Source of the DNA: Synergistaceae bacterium OttesenSCG-928-D05
Lineage (GTDB): Bacteria > Synergistota > Synergistia > Synergistales > Synergistaceae
Reading direction: 5' to 3'
Assembly (NCBI GenBank): GCA_030266985.1
Contig: JAJDJB010000002.1
Coordinates: forward strand, 1 to 64,000
Length of the DNA: 64,000 nt
Position numbers and translations under genes: made by a program. The first letter of the stretch is position 1, and every line of letters starts with the position of its first letter. The notes under the pieces are model-generated. The model was not told the origin of the DNA. It was given only the letters and a program-made list of their open reading frames with translations, and made no database searches. Positions 2,640 to 54,142 of the stretch are shown here, in pieces.

Positions 2640-3335
2640 TTACAGCAGCGCCATCCGGTAGCGTTTTTCAGGCCGTCCCACACGCCGGTATGCATATTCG
2701 ACAACGACGCGTTCGCTCATCGTGAGAAACTCCAGGTAACGCCGCGCGGTCGAGCGCGAAATGCCAAGTTTGTCCCCGACCTCCTGCGCTGAAAACGTGT
2801 CGCTGCTCTCCTTGAGGAAGGATTCGACGTCGTTCAGGCATTTAAGCTGAAGCCCTTTTGGGATTGAGCGATTATTCGCCCACGACGGGTCGCGCGCTTT
2901 CATGGAAATCAGCGTGTCGAGGTCCTCCTGCTGCCAGGGGCGCGTGCGTCCGGTGAGGCTGTGGTGGTAGACGTGGTAATTCCGCAGCGCCAGGCGCAGA
3001 CGCTCGAAGGAGAAGGGCTTGATCAGGAATTCAAATACGCCCTGGCAAAGCGCATTGCGTACAAGCTCCGGATTTTCGCCCGACGAGGCGATGATGTAAT
3101 CCAATCGCGGAAATTCTTTGCGCAGTTCATCCAGCCCCTCCAGCGCGTTGAAATCCTTGAGGTAAAGGTCCAACAAAACAAGATCGGCGCCAACGATGCG
3201 CAGCGTTTCAAACATCTGCGGCCCGGTCGAAACGCATTTCAAGACTGTGAAGGCATTTTCCTCCGCGATCAGGTCTGAATACAGCTTTTGCAGCAGCGGA
3301 TCGGCTTCCGCAATCAGCACCTTCAAAATTCGCAT
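2640..3335 (-). CDS. CitB/DcuR-type response regulator (orphan)
   Basis: Two-component response regulator of 231 residues. The receiver domain (about 1-120) has the acidic residues E10 and D12, the phosphoacceptor D56 in LLDLYL, S84/S85 and the conserved K106 in LIKPF. A linker leads to a C-terminal helix-turn-helix (about 180-206, SAQEVGDKLGISRSTARRYL) and a wing. This is the architecture of CitB, DcuR and DpiA regulators of citrate and C4-dicarboxylate use. Such genes normally sit beside a CitA/DcuS kinase; none is here, so its partner and targets are unknown. The start ATG follows GAAGGAGGACGTAG. The leader carries an attenuator-like structure. Confidence 0.85.
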   Translation of the reverse strand: MRILKVLIAEADPLLQKLYSDLIAEENAFTVLKCVSTGPQMFETLRIVGADLVLLDLYLKDFNALEGLDELRKEFPRLDYIIASSGENPELVRNALCQGVFEFLIKPFSFERLRLALRNYHVYHHSLTGRTRPWQQEDLDTLISMKARDPSWANNRSIPKGLQLKCLNDVESFLKESSDTFSAQEVGDKLGISRSTARRYLEFLTMSERVVVEYAYRRVGRPEKRYRMALL

Positions 3336-3364
3336 CTACGTCCTCCTTCATAATTTCGAAGCAC

Positions 3365-3460
3365 AAAAAAACGGCTTCGCTTTCGCAAAAACCGCACTCC
3401 GACATAAGGAACGGGCGCACACCACGTGCAAAATCCGTTCAATCCCCTTTCCAAGTGCGG
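3365..3460 (-). promoter_or_regulatory. Attenuator-like leader of the response-regulator gene
   Basis: Just before the ribosome binding site the minus strand can form a terminator: CGG and CCG (3394-3392 and 3374-3372) enclose a GC/AT stem capped by GAAA, followed by seven T (3371-3365). The segment AGTGCGG (3398-3392), which includes the terminator's 5' CGG, is perfectly complementary to CCGCACT (3460-3454) upstream. This gives a mutually exclusive antiterminator. A further hairpin GAACGG...CCGTTC lies inside. A 51-codon ORF starting at about 3508 and ending next to the regulator's ribosome binding site could act as a leader peptide but has no clear ribosome binding site. Confidence 0.45.
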
Positions 3461-3519
3461 GAGGCGCCTCCGTTTCCAGAGGAACCCATTGGCCGGCATC
3501 CATAGATAAAAATCCACAG

Positions 3520-3548
3520 GATATACGGCTCGGGGTCTACGTTGTCTA
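3520..3548 (-). promoter_or_regulatory. Possible promoter of the response-regulator leader
   Basis: On the minus strand TAGACA (3548-3543) and TATATC (3525-3520) have 17-nt spacing. This would give a leader of about 180 nt, long enough for the attenuator-like folds. The rest of the gap up to the methyltransferase is AT-rich and holds only a weak TATAAT near 3680. Confidence 0.35.
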
Positions 3549-3715
3549 ATTCTGTCTTAAGATTACATAAAAAATTTCTTTTCGTCAAGAAAAAGTGCGA
3601 TCTATTTAATTAATATCATTAAAACTCCATAAAATAAAAACCTACATCCGGAAGGTGCAAAGACCCGGCAACTAAAATATAATAGAGGCAGGAAGAAAAA
3701 GAGGAGGCTCCGTCA

Positions 3716-40467: not shown

Positions 40468-41094
40468 TCAGCGAAAGTCGCCGCCGAAACCGCGCCCGCC
40501 GAAACCAAACATCCTCGGGCGTCCTTGTCCGCGATGTTCCGGGCCGTGCCCACGCCCGTGTCCGCAGTGTTCACGGTCGTGTCCGTGAAATTCGTGGGGC
40601 GTTCCGCAGCGGCCGTGCGGCGCACCAAAGCGGTCGTCTGTCTGCATCTGCGCTTCCCTTTCTTTCCAGGAAACGATTAATTTTTCCAGCAAGCCCGAAA
40701 GTGTTTCGCGTTCTGCTTCGTTGAGCGGCGCAAAAATCCCATCGAGTCTTTCACCCATTGAGTCCGCGAACTGCTGCGCAATTTCGCGTCCTTTATCCGT
40801 CAGGAAAACGTTCGACACGCGCTTATCCTCCTCGTTGACGCTTTTTGTTACATAACCGGCGCTTTCCAGTTTCGCGACAAGTTCACTCTCGGAAGAAGGC
40901 CGAATGTCGAGCGCTTCGACGATATCTTTATGGGACATTCCGTCCCGTTCTAATAGAAGAACAAGTAAGCGTCCCTGCCCCCGTTCCGGGAGATTTTCTT
41001 TTCGCTCGCGAACGTCGCAGTGCCCGCGGCGGTGCATGAGGATTGTGCATTGGTGCAGTTGTGTCAATAGTTTTTCGTTAATCTCACGGTTCAT
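40468..41094 (-). CDS. MarR-family regulator with His/Gly-rich tail
   Basis: Regulator of 208 residues. The winged-helix core (about 1-150) includes QGRLLVLLLERDGMSHKDIV, the recognition helix RPSSESELVAKLESAGYV and the wing EEDKRVSNVFLTDKG. A C-terminal extension (about 165-208) is rich in His, Gly and Arg with HGHDREHCGHGRGHGPEH, absent from ordinary MarR proteins and suggestive of metal or nucleic-acid binding. The start follows AAAGGGG. A perfect palindrome next to its promoter suggests autorepression. Confidence 0.85.
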   Translation of the reverse strand: MNREINEKLLTQLHQCTILMHRRGHCDVRERKENLPERGQGRLLVLLLERDGMSHKDIVEALDIRPSSESELVAKLESAGYVTKSVNEEDKRVSNVFLTDKGREIAQQFADSMGERLDGIFAPLNEAERETLSGLLEKLIVSWKEREAQMQTDDRFGAPHGRCGTPHEFHGHDREHCGHGRGHGPEHRGQGRPRMFGFGGRGFGGDFR

Positions 41095-41175: not shown

Positions 41176-41235
41176 TAGCTTCGGTGCCGAAATATTTTTA
41201 AATCCTAAATTTCTCGAATCCAACAAAATAAAAGC

Positions 41236-41300
41236 GCAACATGGTTGCATAAAAAAGAGAGTTCTCTTATAATTATCTCTGCGATGAAACTTAGTTGCAT
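41236..41300 (+). promoter_or_regulatory. modABC promoter with GTTGC repeats
   Basis: TTGCAT (41245-41250) and TATAAT (41268-41273) have 17-nt spacing. The inverted repeat GCAAC-ATG-GTTGC (41236-41248) overlaps the -35, and the direct copy GTTGCAT recurs at 41294-41300, about 50 nt on. This could bind a molybdate-sensing repressor; it does not match the ModE box I know. Confidence 0.6.
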
Positions 41301-41368: not shown

Positions 41369-42190
41369 ATGAAAGTTCTGAAACGTTTTGCGTACGTGAT
41401 GGCGGTACTGCTGCTTTGCGCGGCCGTATTCGCAGCCCCGCAGCAGGCCTTTGCTGCAAAGGAAGTAACGGTGTTCGCGGCTGCGTCGATGACCGAATCG
41501 ATGAACCAGATCGCCGAGCTGTACAAGAAGGTTGCTCCCGACGTGAAGATCGTTTACAACTTCGACTCGAGCGGCACGCTGAAAACCCAGATCGAACAGG
41601 GCGCGGACTGCGATGTTTTCATCTCTGCCGGACAGAAGCAGATGAACGAGCTCGACGTGAAAGCGGACGAAAAAGCCAATCCGAAAAAAGCGGACTTCTT
41701 AATGGAAGGAACGCGTTTTAATATCGTCGCGAACCAGGTCGTAATGATCGTGCCGAAGGGCGTGAACCCGAAGGACATCAACGACTTCAAAGACGTTGCG
41801 ACGGATAAAGTGAAGTTAATCGCACTCGGCAACTCGGATGTTCCTGTCGGCCAGTACTCCGAAGAAATTTACAAGAACCTTGGACTCTGGGAGCAGATCA
41901 ATAAAGAGAGCAAGATCACGTTCGCAAGCAACGTGAAAGAAGTTCTTTCGCAAGTAGCGGCAGGCGCGGTGGACTGCGGCATCGTCTACGGTACGGACGC
42001 GGCGACATCGAAGGCGGTCGACGTCGTTGCGAAGGCCCCTGCTGACTCGCACAAACCTATCGTATATCCCGCGGCAATCATGAAGAAGGCGAAGGACGCC
42101 GACGCTGCGAAGGCGTTCATCGCATTCCTGAAGGGCCCCGAGGCATCGGCGGCGTTCGAAGCCGTCGGCTTTGTGATCCCCGCGAAGTAA
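41369..42190 (+). CDS. modA: Molybdate ABC transporter substrate-binding protein
   Basis: Exported molybdate/tungstate receptor of 273 residues. The signal peptide spans about 1-29 and is cut near AFAAKE. ModA signatures are VTVFAAASMTESMNQIAELY, FDSSGTLKTQIEQGADCDVF, SAGQKQM, and ALGNSDVPVGQYSEEIY, where oxyanion-binding Ser residues lie. The ribosome binding site is GAGGAG. It heads modABC and adjoins a molybdenum-hydroxylase cluster, which is the likely consumer of the metal. Confidence 0.93.
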   Translation: MKVLKRFAYVMAVLLLCAAVFAAPQQAFAAKEVTVFAAASMTESMNQIAELYKKVAPDVKIVYNFDSSGTLKTQIEQGADCDVFISAGQKQMNELDVKADEKANPKKADFLMEGTRFNIVANQVVMIVPKGVNPKDINDFKDVATDKVKLIALGNSDVPVGQYSEEIYKNLGLWEQINKESKITFASNVKEVLSQVAAGAVDCGIVYGTDAATSKAVDVVAKAPADSHKPIVYPAAIMKKAKDADAAKAFIAFLKGPEASAAFEAVGFVIPAK

Positions 42191-42215
42191 TCGCAGATCG
42201 AAGCAGGATACGCAT

Positions 42216-42245
42216 CTGTGGGCGCAGCGATATATGCGCCCACAG
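42216..42245 (+). other. Intercistronic hairpin between modA and modB
   Basis: CTGTGGGCGC (42216-42225) and GCGCCCACAG (42236-42245) form a perfect 10-bp stem with a 10-nt loop, followed only by TTATT. It probably stabilises modA mRNA or partly terminates, giving more receptor than permease. Confidence 0.65.
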
Positions 42246-42266
42246 TTATTCCGTATAATCTGACGC

Positions 42267-42968
42267 ATGGACTGGTTTCCGCTTTATAATTCTCTGCGCG
42301 TTGCGTCGATCTCCACGTTCATCACCTTTTTCTTGGGGATATTCGCCGCGCATTATATCGCAAAAACACCTAGGCTTCTCAAGGGCGTCCTGGATGTAAT
42401 CCTCACGCTTCCGATGGTCTTGCCTCCGACTGTCGTCGGCTTTTTTCTTTTAAAAACGATTGGACCGCTCGGTCCGGTCGGCTCGTGGGTGCTGGAGCAC
42501 TGGGGCTTTAAAATGACGATGACGTGGTACTCGGCGATTTTCGCGACGACCATCGTCACCTTCCCGCTCATGTACAGAACGGTTCGCGGTGCGTTTGAAT
42601 CCTTCGACACGACGCTTTTATATTCCGGGCAAACGCTCGGCCTTTCCAACACATTCCTTTTCTGGCGCGTGATTATGCCGAACTGCAAGCAGGGTATTCT
42701 GGCCGGTACGGTGCTCGCCTTTGCGCGCGCGCTCGGAGAATACGGTGCGACGACGATGGTGACGGGGTATATCCCCGGCCGAACGGCCACGATTTCGACC
42801 ACCGTTTACCAGCTTTGGCGCGAGGGGAACGACGCGCTCGCCTATAAATGGGTCTTTGTAAATCTCGCGATTTCTTTCGTCGTGCTCGTCACGGTCAACA
42901 TGCTCGAAAACCGCTACACGCGCCCCAAAGGGCGCGGGCAGCAGAATTCGCTCACGGGCGAGGTTTAA
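42267..42968 (+). CDS. modB: Molybdate ABC transporter permease
   Basis: Membrane permease of 233 residues with five or six helices. It starts MDWFPLYNSLRVASISTFI. It has the LPMVLPPTVVGFFLL segment typical of ModB and the EAA loop RALGEYGATTMVTGY that contacts the ATPase. Its ribosome binding site is weak and the intercistronic hairpin precedes it, consistent with lower expression than modA. It lies 9 nt upstream of modC. Confidence 0.92.
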   Translation: MDWFPLYNSLRVASISTFITFFLGIFAAHYIAKTPRLLKGVLDVILTLPMVLPPTVVGFFLLKTIGPLGPVGSWVLEHWGFKMTMTWYSAIFATTIVTFPLMYRTVRGAFESFDTTLLYSGQTLGLSNTFLFWRVIMPNCKQGILAGTVLAFARALGEYGATTMVTGYIPGRTATISTTVYQLWREGNDALAYKWVFVNLAISFVVLVTVNMLENRYTRPKGRGQQNSLTGEV

Positions 42969-42977
42969 GTTCGCGCT

Positions 42978-44048
42978 ATGACGATTCTTGTTGATATCAA
43001 AAAAAATCTCGGCAACTTTAAACTGAACGTGCAGTTTGAGGCGCGCGACGAAATCCTTGCGTTGCTTGGCGCGTCCGGCTGCGGCAAGAGCATGACGCTG
43101 AAATGTATCGCGGGGATCGTAAAACCGGACGAAGGCGTGATCGTCGTAAACGGCAGCACGCTTTTCGATTCGAAAAAAGGGATCAACCTTACGCCGCAGA
43201 AGCGCAACGTCGGCCTGCTTTTTCAAAATTACGCGCTTTTCCCGAACATGACGGTCGAAGAAAATATTATGGCCGTGCTGACGCGCGTGAAAAAAGCGAA
43301 GGACGCGCCAGCGCGTTTCCGGTCGCTCTGCGAGCGTTTTTACATCACGGGGCTCGAGCGGCACTACCCGGCGCAGCTCTCGGGCGGTCAGCAGCAGCGC
43401 GTTGCGCTTGCGCGTATCATGGCAAGCGACCCTTCGATCATCATGCTCGACGAGCCGCTTTCGGCGCTCGACAGCTACCTGCGCTGGCAGCTTGAGCTCG
43501 AGCTGATTCAGATGCTTGAGGATTTTCCGGCGACGACGCTCTACGTATCGCACAATCGCGACGAAGTATTCCGCATCTGCGATCGCGTCTGCGCAATGAG
43601 CGCCGGACACGCCGAAAAAGTTTGTTCCACGGAAGAATTGTTTGAAAAGCCAAGTTCTCTTGCCGCCGCGTTTCTTTCGGGCTGCAAAAATTATTCGCGC
43701 ATAGAAACGCGCGGGCAGGACGTCGTTTTCGCAAAAGACTGGGGTATTGAGCTGCTCTGTGCGGAGCGCGTCCCCGCAAACGCGGCGTACATCGGCGTGC
43801 GCGCGCATTTTATCGCGCCGGTCAGGGCGGGCGAAGGTCAAAACATTGTCCCGTGCCGCGTGCTGCGCGTCATGCAGGACGTTTTTTCAACCATTATTAT
43901 GCTGCTGCCGCAGGGCGCAGCGCCCGGCGGCAACGACTATGCAAAAATCCGAATGGAAATTCCGAAAGAAGAGGCGAAAGGCATCCGGGAGGGAGACACT
44001 GTCAGCGTCAAAATCCAACCCCGGGACATCATGCTTCTGAAACGGTAA
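42978..44048 (+). CDS. modC: Molybdate ABC transporter ATP-binding protein
   Basis: ATPase of 356 residues. Walker A is GASGCGKS (about 31-38), the Q-loop lies in LLFQNYALFPNM, the signature is LSGGQQQR, Walker B is IIMLDEPLSALD and the H-loop is YVSHNRDE. A C-terminal TOBE/Mop-like region (about 285-356) is expected for oxyanion regulation. Both junctions in modABC are short. The gene is convergent with a GntR gene 13 nt away and has no clear terminator of its own. Confidence 0.92.
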   Translation: MTILVDIKKNLGNFKLNVQFEARDEILALLGASGCGKSMTLKCIAGIVKPDEGVIVVNGSTLFDSKKGINLTPQKRNVGLLFQNYALFPNMTVEENIMAVLTRVKKAKDAPARFRSLCERFYITGLERHYPAQLSGGQQQRVALARIMASDPSIIMLDEPLSALDSYLRWQLELELIQMLEDFPATTLYVSHNRDEVFRICDRVCAMSAGHAEKVCSTEELFEKPSSLAAAFLSGCKNYSRIETRGQDVVFAKDWGIELLCAERVPANAAYIGVRAHFIAPVRAGEGQNIVPCRVLRVMQDVFSTIIMLLPQGAAPGGNDYAKIRMEIPKEEAKGIREGDTVSVKIQPRDIMLLKR

Positions 44049-48269: not shown

Positions 48270-49142
48270 ATGTTCCGATCGAATTGCACGAGACATCTAT
48301 TTGACAGAACCGCCGTCGTTCGGGGCGGAGGCGACCTTGCCACCGGAATTATCTACAGGCTCTGGCGCACCGGATTCAAGGTCATTTCCCTCGAAGTCGA
48401 ACGTCCGCTTGTCGTGCGCCGAACCGTTTCGGTCGCGCAGGCCGTGTTCGATGGCGCGTGTGAAATTGAAGGCATGCGCGCGACGCGTATCGACTCCGTT
48501 CGGGAGTTTGCGTACACAGACGACGTTTCTGTTCTGGTAGATCCGACGGGCGATTCGATCGATTTTTTGAGCCCCGTTTTATTGGTGGACGCCATTATGG
48601 CAAAAAAGAATATGGGCACTTCTATCGATATGGCGCCTCTGGTCGTTGGTATCGGGCCCGGTTTCACCGCGGGTGAAGACGTGCATTGCGTCGTCGAGAC
48701 AAAAAGGGGCCATCATCTAGGCCGCCTGCTCTCGAAAGGTTCCGCGATTCCGAATACCGGAGTTCCCGGTATGGAGATGGGCTATACGACAGAACGCCTC
48801 CTTCGCGCGCCGGCTGCGGGTTATGTCGAACCGCTGCTGGAAATCGGCACGCATGTCGAGGCGAATCAAATCATTGCGTACGTCGCCGGAATCCCTGTAC
48901 GTGCGCAAATTTCCGGAATGCTGCGCGGATTGATCCACCCCTCCGTTTATGTCAAACAGGGGCTCAAAATCGGGGACATCGATCCGCGAAACGAGCGTTC
49001 GCATTGCTTTTCCATCACGGATAAAGCGCTTGCCATCGCTGGTGGCGTACTGGAAGCCGTGATGCAGCACGAAGCTTTTTACATGGGGCAAGGCTACAGG
49101 GAGGAAGGGATTGAATATGCAGCACAAAGAATTATGTTTTAA
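48270..49142 (+). CDS. yqeB: YqeB/EF2563-type selenium-dependent molybdenum hydroxylase accessory protein
   Basis: Protein of 290 residues with the family N-terminus VVRGGGDLATGIIYRLWRTG, a Rossmann-like segment shared with XdhC. It continues with SIDMAPLVVGIGPGFTAGED and NTGVPGMEMGYTTERLLRAP, then a lipoyl-like C-terminal lobe. YqeB accompanies molybdenum hydroxylases thought to carry a labile selenium ligand and is used as their genomic marker. The position directly ahead of the hydroxylase subunits, overlapping the small-subunit gene by 26 nt, supports that. The ribosome binding site is weak. Confidence 0.83.
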   Translation: MFRSNCTRHLFDRTAVVRGGGDLATGIIYRLWRTGFKVISLEVERPLVVRRTVSVAQAVFDGACEIEGMRATRIDSVREFAYTDDVSVLVDPTGDSIDFLSPVLLVDAIMAKKNMGTSIDMAPLVVGIGPGFTAGEDVHCVVETKRGHHLGRLLSKGSAIPNTGVPGMEMGYTTERLLRAPAAGYVEPLLEIGTHVEANQIIAYVAGIPVRAQISGMLRGLIHPSVYVKQGLKIGDIDPRNERSHCFSITDKALAIAGGVLEAVMQHEAFYMGQGYREEGIEYAAQRIMF

Positions 49143-49602
49143 GGTCAACGGCCGCGAACAGCATCTTTTGGTGCGGACAAACTGGACTCTGGCACAGGTT
49201 CTTCGTGAGCAGCTGGGATTGCTCGGCACCAAAATCGGATGCGGCGAAGGAGAATGCGGTGCCTGCACCGTACTCATGAACGGAAAGAGCGTAACTTCCT
49301 GCCTGGTTATGGCAGTACAGGCGGAGGGCGCGGAAATTATTACGATCGAAGGACTGGCGGAGGGGGAGACCCTGCACCCGGTCCAGGAAGCTTTTGTCGA
49401 AGCCGGTGCGATCCAGTGCGGGTACTGCACGCCCGGTATGGTCATCTCCACGGTAGCTCTTCTTGAGAAACACCCGACCCCGAACGACGAGCAAATTCGT
49501 GAGGGTCTGACCGGCAATCTCTGCCGCTGCACCGGATACCAGAAAATTTTTGAAGCGGTCAACATCGCATCCAAGAAAATGGCGGGAGGCGAAAAAGAAT
49601 GA
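49117..49602 (+). CDS. Molybdenum hydroxylase small (2x[2Fe-2S]) subunit
   Basis: Iron-sulfur subunit of 161 residues of the xanthine dehydrogenase/CoxS type. The plant-type 2Fe-2S domain has KIGCGEGECGACTVLMNG, and the C-terminal helical 2Fe-2S domain has QCGYCTPGM and NLCRCTGYQ. It passes electrons from the Mo site to FAD. ATG 49117 has AAGGG 7 nt upstream; TTG 49111 is an alternative. The next gene overlaps by ATGA. Confidence 0.92.
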   Translation: MQHKELCFKVNGREQHLLVRTNWTLAQVLREQLGLLGTKIGCGEGECGACTVLMNGKSVTSCLVMAVQAEGAEIITIEGLAEGETLHPVQEAFVEAGAIQCGYCTPGMVISTVALLEKHPTPNDEQIREGLTGNLCRCTGYQKIFEAVNIASKKMAGGEKE

Positions 49603-51947
49603 GCAGCACCGCAAAAGAAGTTCGCTATGAAAAGGGCGACTATTCTGTCATAGGTTCCAGGAAACCGTACGTCGACGCCATCGACAAGGTAACGGGAAAA
49701 ACCGTCTATGTAACAGATATGACGCTGCCGGGCATGCTGCATGGCAAAGCATTGCGCAGCCCGCACGCACACGCAAAGGTCTTGAATATCGATACGTCGG
49801 CAGCCGAGAAGCTACCGGGCGTTAAATGCGTCCTGACCGGCAAAAACGTTCAGCAGAACAAATGGGGCCCGGTCACGAAAGACGAGTATCTGCTCGCAGT
49901 GGATAAAGTCAACTTTGTCGGCGACGAAGTGGCCGCGGTGGCCGCGGTCGACGAAGAGACCTGCGAAGAAGCGCTGTCCCTGATCAAAGTCGAATACGAA
50001 CCCCTTCCCGCGGTGCTTTCCATGCACGACGCGATGAAAGAGGGCGCGCCGCTGATCCACGAAGCGTTTCCCGGAAACGTAAATCATCATTTTAATATTC
50101 CGCGCGGCGACATCGAAGAAGTGTTCCGCAACGCTTATTTCGTCCACGAGGGGGAATATGAAGCGAGCCTTGAGTATCAGGCGTATATCGAACCTATGGG
50201 CGGCATTTCGACGTGGGATAACAGGGGCAACGTTACAATTTACGCCGGTATCCAGACCCCGACGTGGTCGCGCAACGATTATGCGGTCGCGCTCGATATC
50301 CCAGTCGAAAAAGTGCGCATCGTGCAGCCGCCGTTCGGCGGCGGGTTCGGCGCAAAACTTTCGCAGCAGGTGCACCCGCTCGGCGCACTGATCGCGAAAT
50401 ACGCGAAGCAACCGGTTCGTTTCTGCCTCGACAGGCTCGAAGATTTCCAGTGCGGCCTGCCGCGCGTTCCCATGCACTTCAAACTCAAGACCGCGTGGAG
50501 CAAAGAGGGAAAATATCTCGCGAAACAGGTAAAAATCATTGCGGACCAGGGCGCGTACGCGTCCTACGGAGCGGCCATCACGCTGACGGCAATGTACCGC
50601 ATCGACATTATGTACCAGGTGCCCGTCGTTCACTCGGAGTCGCACCTCGTATATACCAACAAAGTTCCGACGGGATGCTTCCGCGGGTTCGGAAATTCCC
50701 AGAAACATTTCGCACACGAGACCCATCTCGATGAAGTTGCCGAACGCCTCAGCATCGCGCCCGACGATCTGCGCCTCCGCAATATCGCGGTTCCGGGCTA
50801 CATGAATCCGCATGGCTGGAAGGCGAACAGCGTTGAAGTCGAAGCCTGCATCAAAAAAGGCATGGAGCGCTCCGACTTCCATGAAAAACGCAAAAATTTC
50901 CTGGTTTTAAATAAAGAAGACAACCCGATCAAAAAAGGCATCGGCATGGCGCCCTGCGTTCACGTTTCCGGCAACCGTTCCTTCATCAAGCCATTTGAAG
51001 GCGGCGCGGTCCTGCTCCGGATGAACGAACAGGGGAAAGTTTTCGTCTATTGCAATGAGCCCGATATGGGGCAGGGCATTCGTACGACGCTTACGATGTG
51101 CGTGTCGGATGCGCTAAAAATGGATTTCGAGCACATCTCCGTGCCGGACCCCGATACGGATATCGTTCCGTTCGGACTCGGCTGCTTCGCAAGCCGCGGC
51201 ACCTACATGGCAACCGGCGCGATGCACATGGCGGTTGCCGATATGAAAAATAAATTGATCAAACTGGCATCGGAACTGCTTGAACTGCCGGAAAGCGACC
51301 TCGAACTGAAAGACGGCGCTGTCGTCTCGACCTCGAATCCATCGAAGAGCGCGGGGTATCCGGAGCTCGCATGGAAACACGTCTGCGACAACCCCGGACA
51401 GCATCTGCTGGGAATCGGTTATTTCACGCCCGCAGGCGTTGACTATCCCGACGACAAAAAATACAACAACATTTCCGGCGGCTACGCATTCGGTTGTCAT
51501 GTCGCAGAAGTCGAAGTCAACACGGAAACGGGACAGGTCAAAGTGAGCAAAATGTGGGGCATCCACGATGTCGGCCAACCGATCAACGAGCTCGCGCTCG
51601 AAGGCCAAATTCAGGGCGGCATCGCGCAGGGCTACGGCTGGACGTTGATGGAGCATCTCCGCCACGGCCCAGACGGCAAGATCATCAACGCCTGCTTCCT
51701 GGATTATCAGGTGCCAACGGCAGCGGATATCCCGGAAATTCACGCGGAAGTCGTCGACAGTTTCGAGTGGACCACGGGCTTCGGCGCTAAGTCGATCGGT
51801 GAAGCTTGCTTTATCGGCACCGCTCCCGCAATTCAAAACGCGATCTATAACGCGATCGGCATCCGTTTCAACGAGTTGCCGATCACGGCAGAAAAAATAT
51901 TGAGCGCTCTCGGCGAAAAAAAGAAAGGAGGTGAAGGGCATGCATAA
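49599..51947 (+). CDS. Molybdenum hydroxylase large (Mo-cofactor) subunit
   Basis: Catalytic subunit of 782 residues of the xanthine dehydrogenase family. An aldehyde oxidase a/b hammerhead (about 18-125) is followed by Mo-cofactor domains with PFGGGFGAKLSQQ, GCFRGFGNSQK, CNEPDMGQGI and the C-terminal AKSIGEACFIGTAPAIQNA, which includes the catalytic Glu. It probably hydroxylates a carbon next to ring nitrogen. Nicotinate, purine and other N-heterocycles are all possible; the residues visible do not decide. It shares overlapping ends with the small and FAD subunits. Confidence 0.92.
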   Translation: MSSTAKEVRYEKGDYSVIGSRKPYVDAIDKVTGKTVYVTDMTLPGMLHGKALRSPHAHAKVLNIDTSAAEKLPGVKCVLTGKNVQQNKWGPVTKDEYLLAVDKVNFVGDEVAAVAAVDEETCEEALSLIKVEYEPLPAVLSMHDAMKEGAPLIHEAFPGNVNHHFNIPRGDIEEVFRNAYFVHEGEYEASLEYQAYIEPMGGISTWDNRGNVTIYAGIQTPTWSRNDYAVALDIPVEKVRIVQPPFGGGFGAKLSQQVHPLGALIAKYAKQPVRFCLDRLEDFQCGLPRVPMHFKLKTAWSKEGKYLAKQVKIIADQGAYASYGAAITLTAMYRIDIMYQVPVVHSESHLVYTNKVPTGCFRGFGNSQKHFAHETHLDEVAERLSIAPDDLRLRNIAVPGYMNPHGWKANSVEVEACIKKGMERSDFHEKRKNFLVLNKEDNPIKKGIGMAPCVHVSGNRSFIKPFEGGAVLLRMNEQGKVFVYCNEPDMGQGIRTTLTMCVSDALKMDFEHISVPDPDTDIVPFGLGCFASRGTYMATGAMHMAVADMKNKLIKLASELLELPESDLELKDGAVVSTSNPSKSAGYPELAWKHVCDNPGQHLLGIGYFTPAGVDYPDDKKYNNISGGYAFGCHVAEVEVNTETGQVKVSKMWGIHDVGQPINELALEGQIQGGIAQGYGWTLMEHLRHGPDGKIINACFLDYQVPTAADIPEIHAEVVDSFEWTTGFGAKSIGEACFIGTAPAIQNAIYNAIGIRFNELPITAEKILSALGEKKKGGEGHA

Positions 51948-52785
51948 CATTTCCTATCATGCGCCCTGCAAACTTTCCGACGCAGTTTCTCTGCTTCTGG
52001 AACTCGAAGGTTCGCGCATCCTGGCGGGCGGGACCGACCTGATTGCGAAATGGAAAAAATCGCACTTTTTCGACATGACCTTGGTAGACATCAGAAACAT
52101 TCCCGAACTTTCGGTCATCGAAGAAGTAGAAGAGGGGCTCTTTATCGGGGCAGGCGTAACAATGGACAGAGTATCGGAAGACGAAAGAATCCTTTCAAAA
52201 TTTCCGATCCTCGCAGAAGCTGCAAGTAAGGTTGGCTCCGTTCAGGTACGAAACCTCGCAACGATCGGAGGCAACGCCTGCAACGCGGCGCCTTCCGCGG
52301 ATACCGTTCTGCCGCTCATGGTCTATGGAGCGGAAGCGGTGATTGCCGCAAAAGAAGGCGAACGGCGCGTTGCTTTGCGCGAATTCTTTATCGGGCCGGG
52401 AAAGACGGTTCTGAAGAAAGGCGATGTTTTAAAAGGTTTTGTTATTCCGAATCCGCCGGCGAACTCTTTCGCATACTTCGTCAAACACAGCAGAAGGCCG
52501 GGCATGGATCTCGCGACTGTAGGCGTGGCAGTTCTTCTGGTTTTGGAGAGCGAAAAAACAGCGGACATAAAAGTTATTCTTGGAGCAGTCGGTCCTACGC
52601 CGATTTTTGTGAAAGGTCTCGACATATTCTTTGGCGGCAAAATCGATCCCGACTTCGTCACACGCATTGCTGAGCATTGCGCGAACGCGGCAAGCCCCAT
52701 CACGGACGTTCGGGGAAGTAAGACGTACAGAGAAGCAATGATTAAAAGAAGCGTTGCACTTTGTTTTAGGAACCATACCAGGTAG
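51940..52785 (+). CDS. Molybdenum hydroxylase FAD-binding subunit
   Basis: FAD subunit of 281 residues of the CoxM/XdhB type. FAD-binding segments are ILAGGTDLIAKWK and VQVRNLATIGGNACNAAPSAD. The CO-dehydrogenase-like C-terminal domain includes RRPGMDLATVGVAV. ATG 51940 follows AAGGAGG at 8 nt and overlaps the large-subunit stop; an in-frame GTG at 51931 overlaps the ribosome binding site. Confidence 0.9.
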   Translation: MHNISYHAPCKLSDAVSLLLELEGSRILAGGTDLIAKWKKSHFFDMTLVDIRNIPELSVIEEVEEGLFIGAGVTMDRVSEDERILSKFPILAEAASKVGSVQVRNLATIGGNACNAAPSADTVLPLMVYGAEAVIAAKEGERRVALREFFIGPGKTVLKKGDVLKGFVIPNPPANSFAYFVKHSRRPGMDLATVGVAVLLVLESEKTADIKVILGAVGPTPIFVKGLDIFFGGKIDPDFVTRIAEHCANAASPITDVRGSKTYREAMIKRSVALCFRNHTR

Positions 52786-52855
52786 CAGACAGCCGCGTTT
52801 TTGGCTGGCAAGCAACAAAGTTCCATCAAACTTCCTGTTTAAGGAGATGAATGTA

Positions 52856-54142
52856 ATGGCACTATTTGGTTGGGAGAAAGGCCCAGGACTTGCATCAGGT
52901 ATCAAGTCTTTTTGGGGTGATCAGTGTTTCGGAAGCGTCAGCAACGGAATCATCGACGGCTTGGCTTTTGGTATTATCGCAATTCCTTTGATTCAAAAAG
53001 CGGCTGCGTCGGCAAGCCTTCCGCCTGAGATACTTGAGAGCTGGCTTGTGACGGTCTACGTCGGCGGCGGTCTCCTCAGTATTTTCATGGCGCTTTACTA
53101 CAAGCTGCCGATCGTCGGCGCGTGGTCCATTCCGGGCGCGTTCGCACTTGCGCAGGTTCTTGGGAACTATACGTTCAACGAAGCAGTAGGCGGATTCTTC
53201 ACGGCAGGTGTCATCGTCTTCCTGTTGGGAATCACAGGAACTATAAAATTATTGGTTTCAAAGATTCCGGTGCCAGTCATGATGGCAATGGTCGCGGGTA
53301 CGCTCTTCGGCTGGGGCGCGAAGCTCGTAAGCTCTTTCCAGACCGCGCCCGTCATTTCCCTGATCGGCGTCGCCGGATATGTAATCAGTAAGAAAGTCAT
53401 GAAGAAAGTCCCCGCAGTCGTTGGAACCATGGTCTTTACGCTGATCGGCGCCATCGTGATGGGACAGGTCAATTTCGTCGGCATCGACTGGAGCATTGCG
53501 AAACCCGTGTTCATCATGCCGCATTTCAACTTCTCCGCGTGTCTTTCAATCGGTATTCCGCTTGCGCTGCTCGTCGTCTGCGCGGAAAACATGCAGGCAA
53601 TCGGCGTCCAGATCGCAATCGGCAGGAAACCCCCGGTCAACGCGATGACGATTATCTCCGGCATCGGCGGTATGCTTGCGCCCTTCGGCGGCGGCCATAA
53701 CTGCAACATCGCAGGCCCCATGACCGCATGGGCAGCTTTGGACGAATGCGGCGACGTTGACAAACGTTACGTAGCGGCAGTATGGTGCGGTATCGTGTTC
53801 GCAATCACGGGTATCTTCGCGAAAGCGACGATGAGCCTGCTCAACATGCTTCCCATGGAAGCGACGAACGTCATCGTGGGCCTGGTTTTGATGAGCATGA
53901 TCATCGGCGGCCTCGAGGATTCCTTCGGAACAGGCAAGTTTAAGTTCGGAAACTTCGCATCCTTCACGATCGCAGTCTCCGGCGTCGCGTTCTTCGGCAT
54001 CGGCAGCGCGTTCTGGGCGCTCGTCGTTGGTACGGCCGTTACCCTGCTGCTTGAGAAGAAAGACTACGACGAGATGAAGAGCGTCTTCGACGACCCGCAC
54101 TTTGCTGCAACCGCAATCGAAGACACCGTCGACGCGGCATAA
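52856..54142 (+). CDS. BenE-like membrane permease
   Basis: Polytopic carrier of 428 residues with about 12 helices, resembling the benzoate/H+ symporter (BenE) family. Family-like segments are PIVGAWSIPGAFALAQVLGN, YTFNEAVGGFFTAG and FGGGHNCNIAGPMTAW. BenE is related to the nucleobase-ascorbate transporter superfamily, so the cargo could be an aromatic or N-heterocyclic acid. Start ATG 52856 lies 9 nt after AAGGAG. Its place between hydroxylase and amidase genes makes it the likely importer of the pathway substrate. Confidence 0.75.
   Translation: MALFGWEKGPGLASGIKSFWGDQCFGSVSNGIIDGLAFGIIAIPLIQKAAASASLPPEILESWLVTVYVGGGLLSIFMALYYKLPIVGAWSIPGAFALAQVLGNYTFNEAVGGFFTAGVIVFLLGITGTIKLLVSKIPVPVMMAMVAGTLFGWGAKLVSSFQTAPVISLIGVAGYVISKKVMKKVPAVVGTMVFTLIGAIVMGQVNFVGIDWSIAKPVFIMPHFNFSACLSIGIPLALLVVCAENMQAIGVQIAIGRKPPVNAMTIISGIGGMLAPFGGGHNCNIAGPMTAWAALDECGDVDKRYVAAVWCGIVFAITGIFAKATMSLLNMLPMEATNVIVGLVLMSMIIGGLEDSFGTGKFKFGNFASFTIAVSGVAFFGIGSAFWALVVGTAVTLLLEKKDYDEMKSVFDDPHFAATAIEDTVDAA

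Follow-up and report, generated by a model that had tools for sequence, protein, structure and literature searches.

The locus and its leader

The window analysed here comprises positions 1-64,000 of contig JAJDJB010000002.1 (GCA_030266985.1) from Synergistaceae bacterium OttesenSCG-928-D05, a Synergistaceae draft genome that is 67% complete. On its minus strand, 2640..3335 encodes a 231-residue orphan response regulator of the DcuR/DpiA (CitB) type with Response_reg and HTH_64 domains. A Shine-Dalgarno (SD) sequence, AAGGAGG, reads at 3342..3348, ahead of the ATG at 3335. All leader elements described below lie on the same strand. The initial annotation had described an attenuator-like leader, with a seven-T terminator directly before the ribosome binding site and an AGTGCGG at the terminator 5′ arm complementary to a CCGCACT about 55 nt upstream. 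Both elements are present as described. The intrinsic terminator (3365..3395) consists of the hairpin GCGGUUUUUGCGAAAGCGAAGCCG (3395-3372; −10.8 kcal/mol) and U7 (3371-3365), with the SD starting at 3348. The antiterminator 3′ arm, AGUGCGG (3398-3392), overlaps the 5′ arm of this hairpin and is the exact complement of CCGCACU (3460-3454), with 55 nt between them and 8 bp when one G-U pair is counted. A simple terminator scan did not pick up the hairpin at 3395-3372, probably because it is bulged.

Upstream of the terminator, cmscan found one RNA family, RF01055, the Moco/Tuco riboswitch. The match covers 3428..3547 (3547-3428) and the complete model (1-135), and it scores 70 bits against a gathering cut-off of 36 (E 5.1e-17). 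The leader is thus a full-length member of a known riboswitch class, which overturns the earlier statement that none was recognisable and rules out an unknown RNA class. P1 pairs CCCC (3535-3532) with GGGG (3447-3444), and P2 with its tetraloop receptor, P4 with its GAAA tetraloop, and P5 can all be traced. The P4 loop reads GGAAAC; the 3′ half of the receptor in P2 is present as UAUGG, and its 5′ half is CCUGUGG instead of CCUAAG. Stem P3 is absent, appearing as a gap in the Rfam alignment. The window element is therefore a P3-less variant.

A putative sigma-70 promoter, read from the sequence at 3560..3588 (−35 TTGACG, 3588-3583; 17-nt spacer; −10 TAATCT, 3565-3560), would start transcription at about 3551-3554. 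A consensus promoter scan of the window did not list TTGACG-N17-TAATCT because its −10 element is weak. Relatives carry a promoter at the matching place upstream of the aptamer, often with a perfect TATAAT, which argues against a transcription start downstream of the terminator.

Mutually exclusive folds

The CCGCACU arm sits in the conserved RF01055 core, in the P5 region, so that the antiterminator can form only at the expense of the aptamer. For the transcript ending at U7, partition-function calculations gave a mean pair probability of 0.97 for the antiterminator and 0.03 for the terminator when nothing was enforced. With the aptamer enforced, the antiterminator fell to 0 and the terminator rose to 0.78. 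As modeled, the free aptamer favours the antiterminator and the formed aptamer the terminator, and ligand should hence turn the gene OFF. The whole leader also folds more stably than its shuffles (z = −2.6). When the 92-nt stretch was dinucleotide-shuffled, 2 of 3000 sequences combined an equally stable terminator with a 7-nt complement to the 3′ part of the aptamer overlapping the terminator 5′ arm.

Conservation of the aptamer-regulator pair

RF01055 occurs in 47 of the 61 genomes searched. Of the 129 matches for which the sequence downstream was available, 51 lie before the tungstate-transporter gene tupA, 26 before a molybdopterin-dependent aldehyde oxidoreductase (MOP; NF045668), 21 before this regulator, 4 before ModA, and 1 before a gene of the tungsten aldehyde oxidoreductase (AOR) family; the other 26 were left without a class. 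In all 21 regulator aptamers, P2 and the P4 tetraloop are separated by just 14-16 nt, too few to accommodate P3. A covariance model based on these RNAs added six more genomes with the RNA ahead of the regulator, which raises to 27 the Synergistota genomes where a P3-less aptamer precedes an orthologue of this DcuR/CitB-type protein. No such RNA was found by the covariance-model search at the regulator homologues of six others, G004 and G023 among them.

Base pairing within the aptamer is supported by covariation. In the alignment of 29 RNAs, both partners vary at 24 of the 33 pairs, and compensatory changes occur in P1, P2, P4, and P5. The covariation score was 0.384 in an alignment that was model-fitted to the structure and so biased towards it, against far lower values in all controls (0.168 in shuffles and 0.07-0.11 with slid partners).

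Conservation does not extend to the alternative stems, for which covariation had been proposed as a check. A U-tract terminator is missing from the closest relative (G010), whose regulator is 91% identical, and three distant relatives (G046, G037, and G005) place the SD in the 3′ strand of P1. A conserved antiterminator/terminator is ruled out, given that expression platforms differ among relatives: the aptamer is conserved and the platform is not. The attenuator-like reading of the leader thus holds for the terminator and antiterminator of the window and for the lack of an adjoining kinase gene, and fails for conservation of the alternative stems. Regulski et al. (2008, PMC2408646) showed that an SD in the 3′ strand of P1 represses in the leader of E. 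coli moa, and the resemblance suggests that the relatives with this arrangement also switch OFF. We infer that the sign in vivo is OFF, although predicted SD accessibility in several relatives is the same in both states.

The same lack of conservation might favour a constitutive terminator, a non-riboswitch attenuator (acting through a leader peptide or a bound protein), or a chance arrangement. We regard these readings as highly improbable in view of the full-length RF01055 match, the strong covariation of the upstream domain, and the odds of about 2 in 3000 for the terminator arrangement arising by chance.

Tungsten or molybdenum cofactor

P3-less aptamers correlate with the tungsten cofactor (Tuco), with listed exceptions (PMC2408646). 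Together with the tupA association, this correlation points to Tuco rather than Moco as the probable ligand of the window aptamer. TupA itself gave no match in the host draft, at 67% completeness, and is present in most relatives. The riboswitch might instead sense Moco, or both cofactors, in which case the regulator would report a general shortage of molybdopterin cofactor. RF01055 does not split the two ligands, P3 is a correlate with exceptions (PMC2408646), and the host genome has modABC and a xanthine-dehydrogenase-type cluster. Against this, every one of the 21 regulator aptamers lacks P3 and resembles those before tupA, whereas the same-family elements at MOP have the P3 form, and we consider Moco sensing rather unlikely.

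Some tupA genes are preceded by tandem RF01055 elements. In about a dozen genomes the second, downstream aptamer shares an alteration of the most conserved junction, with CTGAA or TTGAA for CCGAG and GTCTCCC for GCCTCCC (examples are G029:C1:2928647-2928767, G014:C1:517270-517390, G025:C2:87173-87290, and G026:C38:11841-11961); the single tupA aptamers of G004 and G023 are altered as well. These are possibly variants with a changed ligand preference.

An orphan regulator with a modified phosphorylation pocket

The regulator is closest to DcuR and DpiA, with which it shares the Response_reg and HTH_64 architecture, yet its scores lie far below the equivalog cut-offs (109.8 against 262 bits and 88.2 against 264 bits, respectively). 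It thus belongs to the same superfamily without being an equivalog of either. It also differs from the DcuR/DpiA systems in lacking a CitA/DcuS-type kinase: no kinase gene adjoins it, and the SPOB_a domain of CitA-type kinases was found in 0 of 37 genomes of the family, including the host genome. The phosphorylation pocket keeps the phospho-Asp and Lys, and the acidic pair is changed from E-D to E-A. Among riboswitch-linked regulators the second acidic residue is A, S, or Q (E-A, E-S, or E-Q) in 18 of 21; all of them retain the phospho-Asp and nearly all the Lys. Regulator homologues beside a CitA-type kinase keep E-D. In two homologues without the riboswitch, L097 (G023) and L098 (G004), N replaces the phospho-Asp and S replaces the Lys; the former adjoins a patatin-like gene.

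Because there is no CitA-type partner kinase, one of the main inputs is probably how much regulator the riboswitch allows to be made. Alternatively, the protein could act as a conventional two-component regulator that receives its phosphate from an unlinked kinase or from acetyl phosphate, with the riboswitch only trimming its level; this would account for the conserved phospho-Asp and Lys. The host genome encodes eight HATPase_c proteins, some probably gyrase-type, so phosphorylation by a non-cognate kinase could occur. The family-wide lack of a CitA-type kinase and the replaced acidic residue speak against this arrangement, to which we give a limited chance.

Candidate targets

Gene neighbourhood connects the regulator to aldehyde oxidation. 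MOP directly follows the regulator in eight genomes, and MOP or its leader lies near it in three more (G007, G025, and G033), which brings the genomes with this linkage to 11. Four more distant relatives (G046, G037, G045, and G005) have P5CDH-like or other aldehyde dehydrogenases of the NAD type after the regulator. AOR-family genes are present in 46 of the 61 genomes, host included.

Upstream of the MOP promoter we found a 66-bp block conserved over several genera in 16 genomes, all of which have the regulator. In the host genome it occupies about 3076-3141 of contig C2. Leave-one-genus-out scores in the 16 genomes range from 31 to 65 bits, while six genomes that lack a riboswitch-linked regulator (G009, G016, G018, G044, G053, and G060) score below 0 at their MOP promoters. 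Among the genomes tested, this footprint therefore occurs only where the regulator is present. Neighbourhood and footprint together suggest that the regulator activates MOP, although the 66-bp block could belong to another factor.

The host genome departs from this linkage. Its MOP (1409 bits against the NF045668 cut-off of 1100) is on contig C2, unlinked to the regulator, and carries its own P3-containing RF01055 element at 3212-3366, which makes regulation at MOP more complex. Most genomes with MOP near the regulator likewise have a second RF01055 element at MOP, about 150-165 nt long and with P3. The P3-containing elements before MOP (for example L092:3212-3366, L078, and L081) have an extra hairpin in the P5 loop, CCCGGGACGC...GCGTCCG before TTGGAAAGG, which P3-less RF01055 elements do not have. 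In more distant relatives (G005, G037, G041, G044, G053, G058, and G060), a P3-less RF01055 directly precedes MOP, with no intermediary regulator or in addition to one; the regulator is thus not always the intermediary.

The main target may also be something other than MOP, such as tungstate/molybdate uptake or an unrelated carboxylate/aldehyde pathway, with the footprint belonging to another factor. That MOP is unlinked in the host genome would fit, as would the NAD-type aldehyde dehydrogenases beside the regulator in distant relatives and a second operator-like motif in MOP promoters that is not the regulator's. Given the proximity of regulator and MOP in 11 genomes, and a footprint that accompanies the regulator, we think another main target somewhat improbable, and MOP is the target we retain below.

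The second motif is a pseudo-palindrome, TGCAAC-N3-GTTGCA, that is rare in the genome. It occurs in the host at C2:3206-3220 (L092), in 13 other MOP promoters, and at ten further loci. It lies ahead of genes for MOP, P5CDH-like dehydrogenases, ModA-type proteins, and a molybdopterin-binding protein. It also adjoins FUR-family regulator genes and is a candidate operator for a molybdenum regulator of that family. As a binding site of the regulator studied here it was rejected: it precedes MOP in G053 and G060, which lack the regulator, and its positions before modA-type and molybdopterin-binding genes and beside FUR-family genes count further against that assignment. In the window, two copies with one mismatch each (41235-41249 and 41285-41299) stand before modA at 41369; the number of near-matches within the window alone is within chance. 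The MarR-like regulator gene beside modA (40468-41094, minus strand), which has a His/Gly-rich tail and is divergent from modABC (41369-44048), is hardly conserved in relatives. It was dismissed as the binder, as it is not conserved together with the motif. Near modABC, positions 48270-54142 hold a selenium-dependent molybdenum hydroxylase cluster with YqeB, xanthine-dehydrogenase-type subunits, and a permease-like gene, at which no RF01055 match was found.

Proposed mechanism and relation to known systems

The explanation that we favour, and hold to be fairly likely as a whole, is a P3-less Tuco-type OFF switch through which cofactor shortage induces the regulator and, in turn, tungsten-independent aldehyde oxidation. 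With cofactor plentiful, the aptamer would fold with P1 and P5 closed and hold CCGCACU within it. AGUGCGG would then be free for the terminator, and transcription would stop before the response-regulator gene. With cofactor short, CCGCACU would pair with AGUGCGG, the terminator would be blocked, and the regulator would be made. It would most likely activate MOP in close relatives and NAD-type aldehyde/semialdehyde dehydrogenases in more distant ones.

Regulators that tie tungsten status to transport and tungstoenzyme genes were reportedly described in sulfate reducers by Kazakov et al. in 2013 and Rajeev et al. in 2019. Those are described as protein families, whereas sensing in the window would be by an RNA before a response regulator. 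The logic also recalls the B12 riboswitches of B12-independent isoenzyme genes (metE, for example), where ample cofactor turns off the cofactor-independent isoenzyme. The B12 switch acts directly on the enzyme gene; the window switch would act via a regulator.

The RNA class itself is already known, as is riboswitch control of a transcription-factor gene. The window aptamer matches the RF01055 Moco RNA motif (Regulski et al. 2008, PMC2408646) in sequence and structure, in the absence of P3 as in the Tuco variant, and in its predicted OFF logic, and known platforms of this motif include a downstream terminator, as in the window (PMC2408646). Described RF01055 targets serve transport or biosynthesis or are enzymes that use the cofactor; in the window an orphan response regulator takes that place, and the association is conserved across Synergistota. 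The main text of PMC2408646 does not mention response regulators or two-component systems, and we found no published report in the open-access literature that places a Moco/Tuco riboswitch ahead of a response-regulator gene. In Bacillus thuringiensis, a guanine riboswitch ends transcription early before the transcription-factor gene nupR, whose product controls a ligand-related pathway (PMC9430930). Early termination before a transcription-factor gene is shared with the window; the ligand differs, the factor belongs to the GntR family, and no isoenzyme exchange is involved (PMC9430930).

A broader reading is that in Synergistota a Tuco riboswitch has replaced the sensor kinase and sets the level of an orphan, partly phosphorylation-degenerate regulator, which swaps tungsten-dependent aldehyde oxidation for a molybdenum-dependent or metal-independent backup. 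We offer this tentatively, as a proposal less likely than not. If true, it would constitute an RNA-sensed metal-isoenzyme switch, and an instance in which the mRNA leader of a response regulator has taken over from a kinase as its input. Moco/Tuco riboswitches have so far been tied to synthesis, import, or use of the cofactor. Because both aptamer types occur in one genome, the proposed rule that P3 marks Moco and its absence Tuco is open to direct test in vivo. With a P3-less switch at the regulator and a P3-containing one at MOP, the system would reveal how anaerobes select between their tungsten- and molybdenum-based enzymes.
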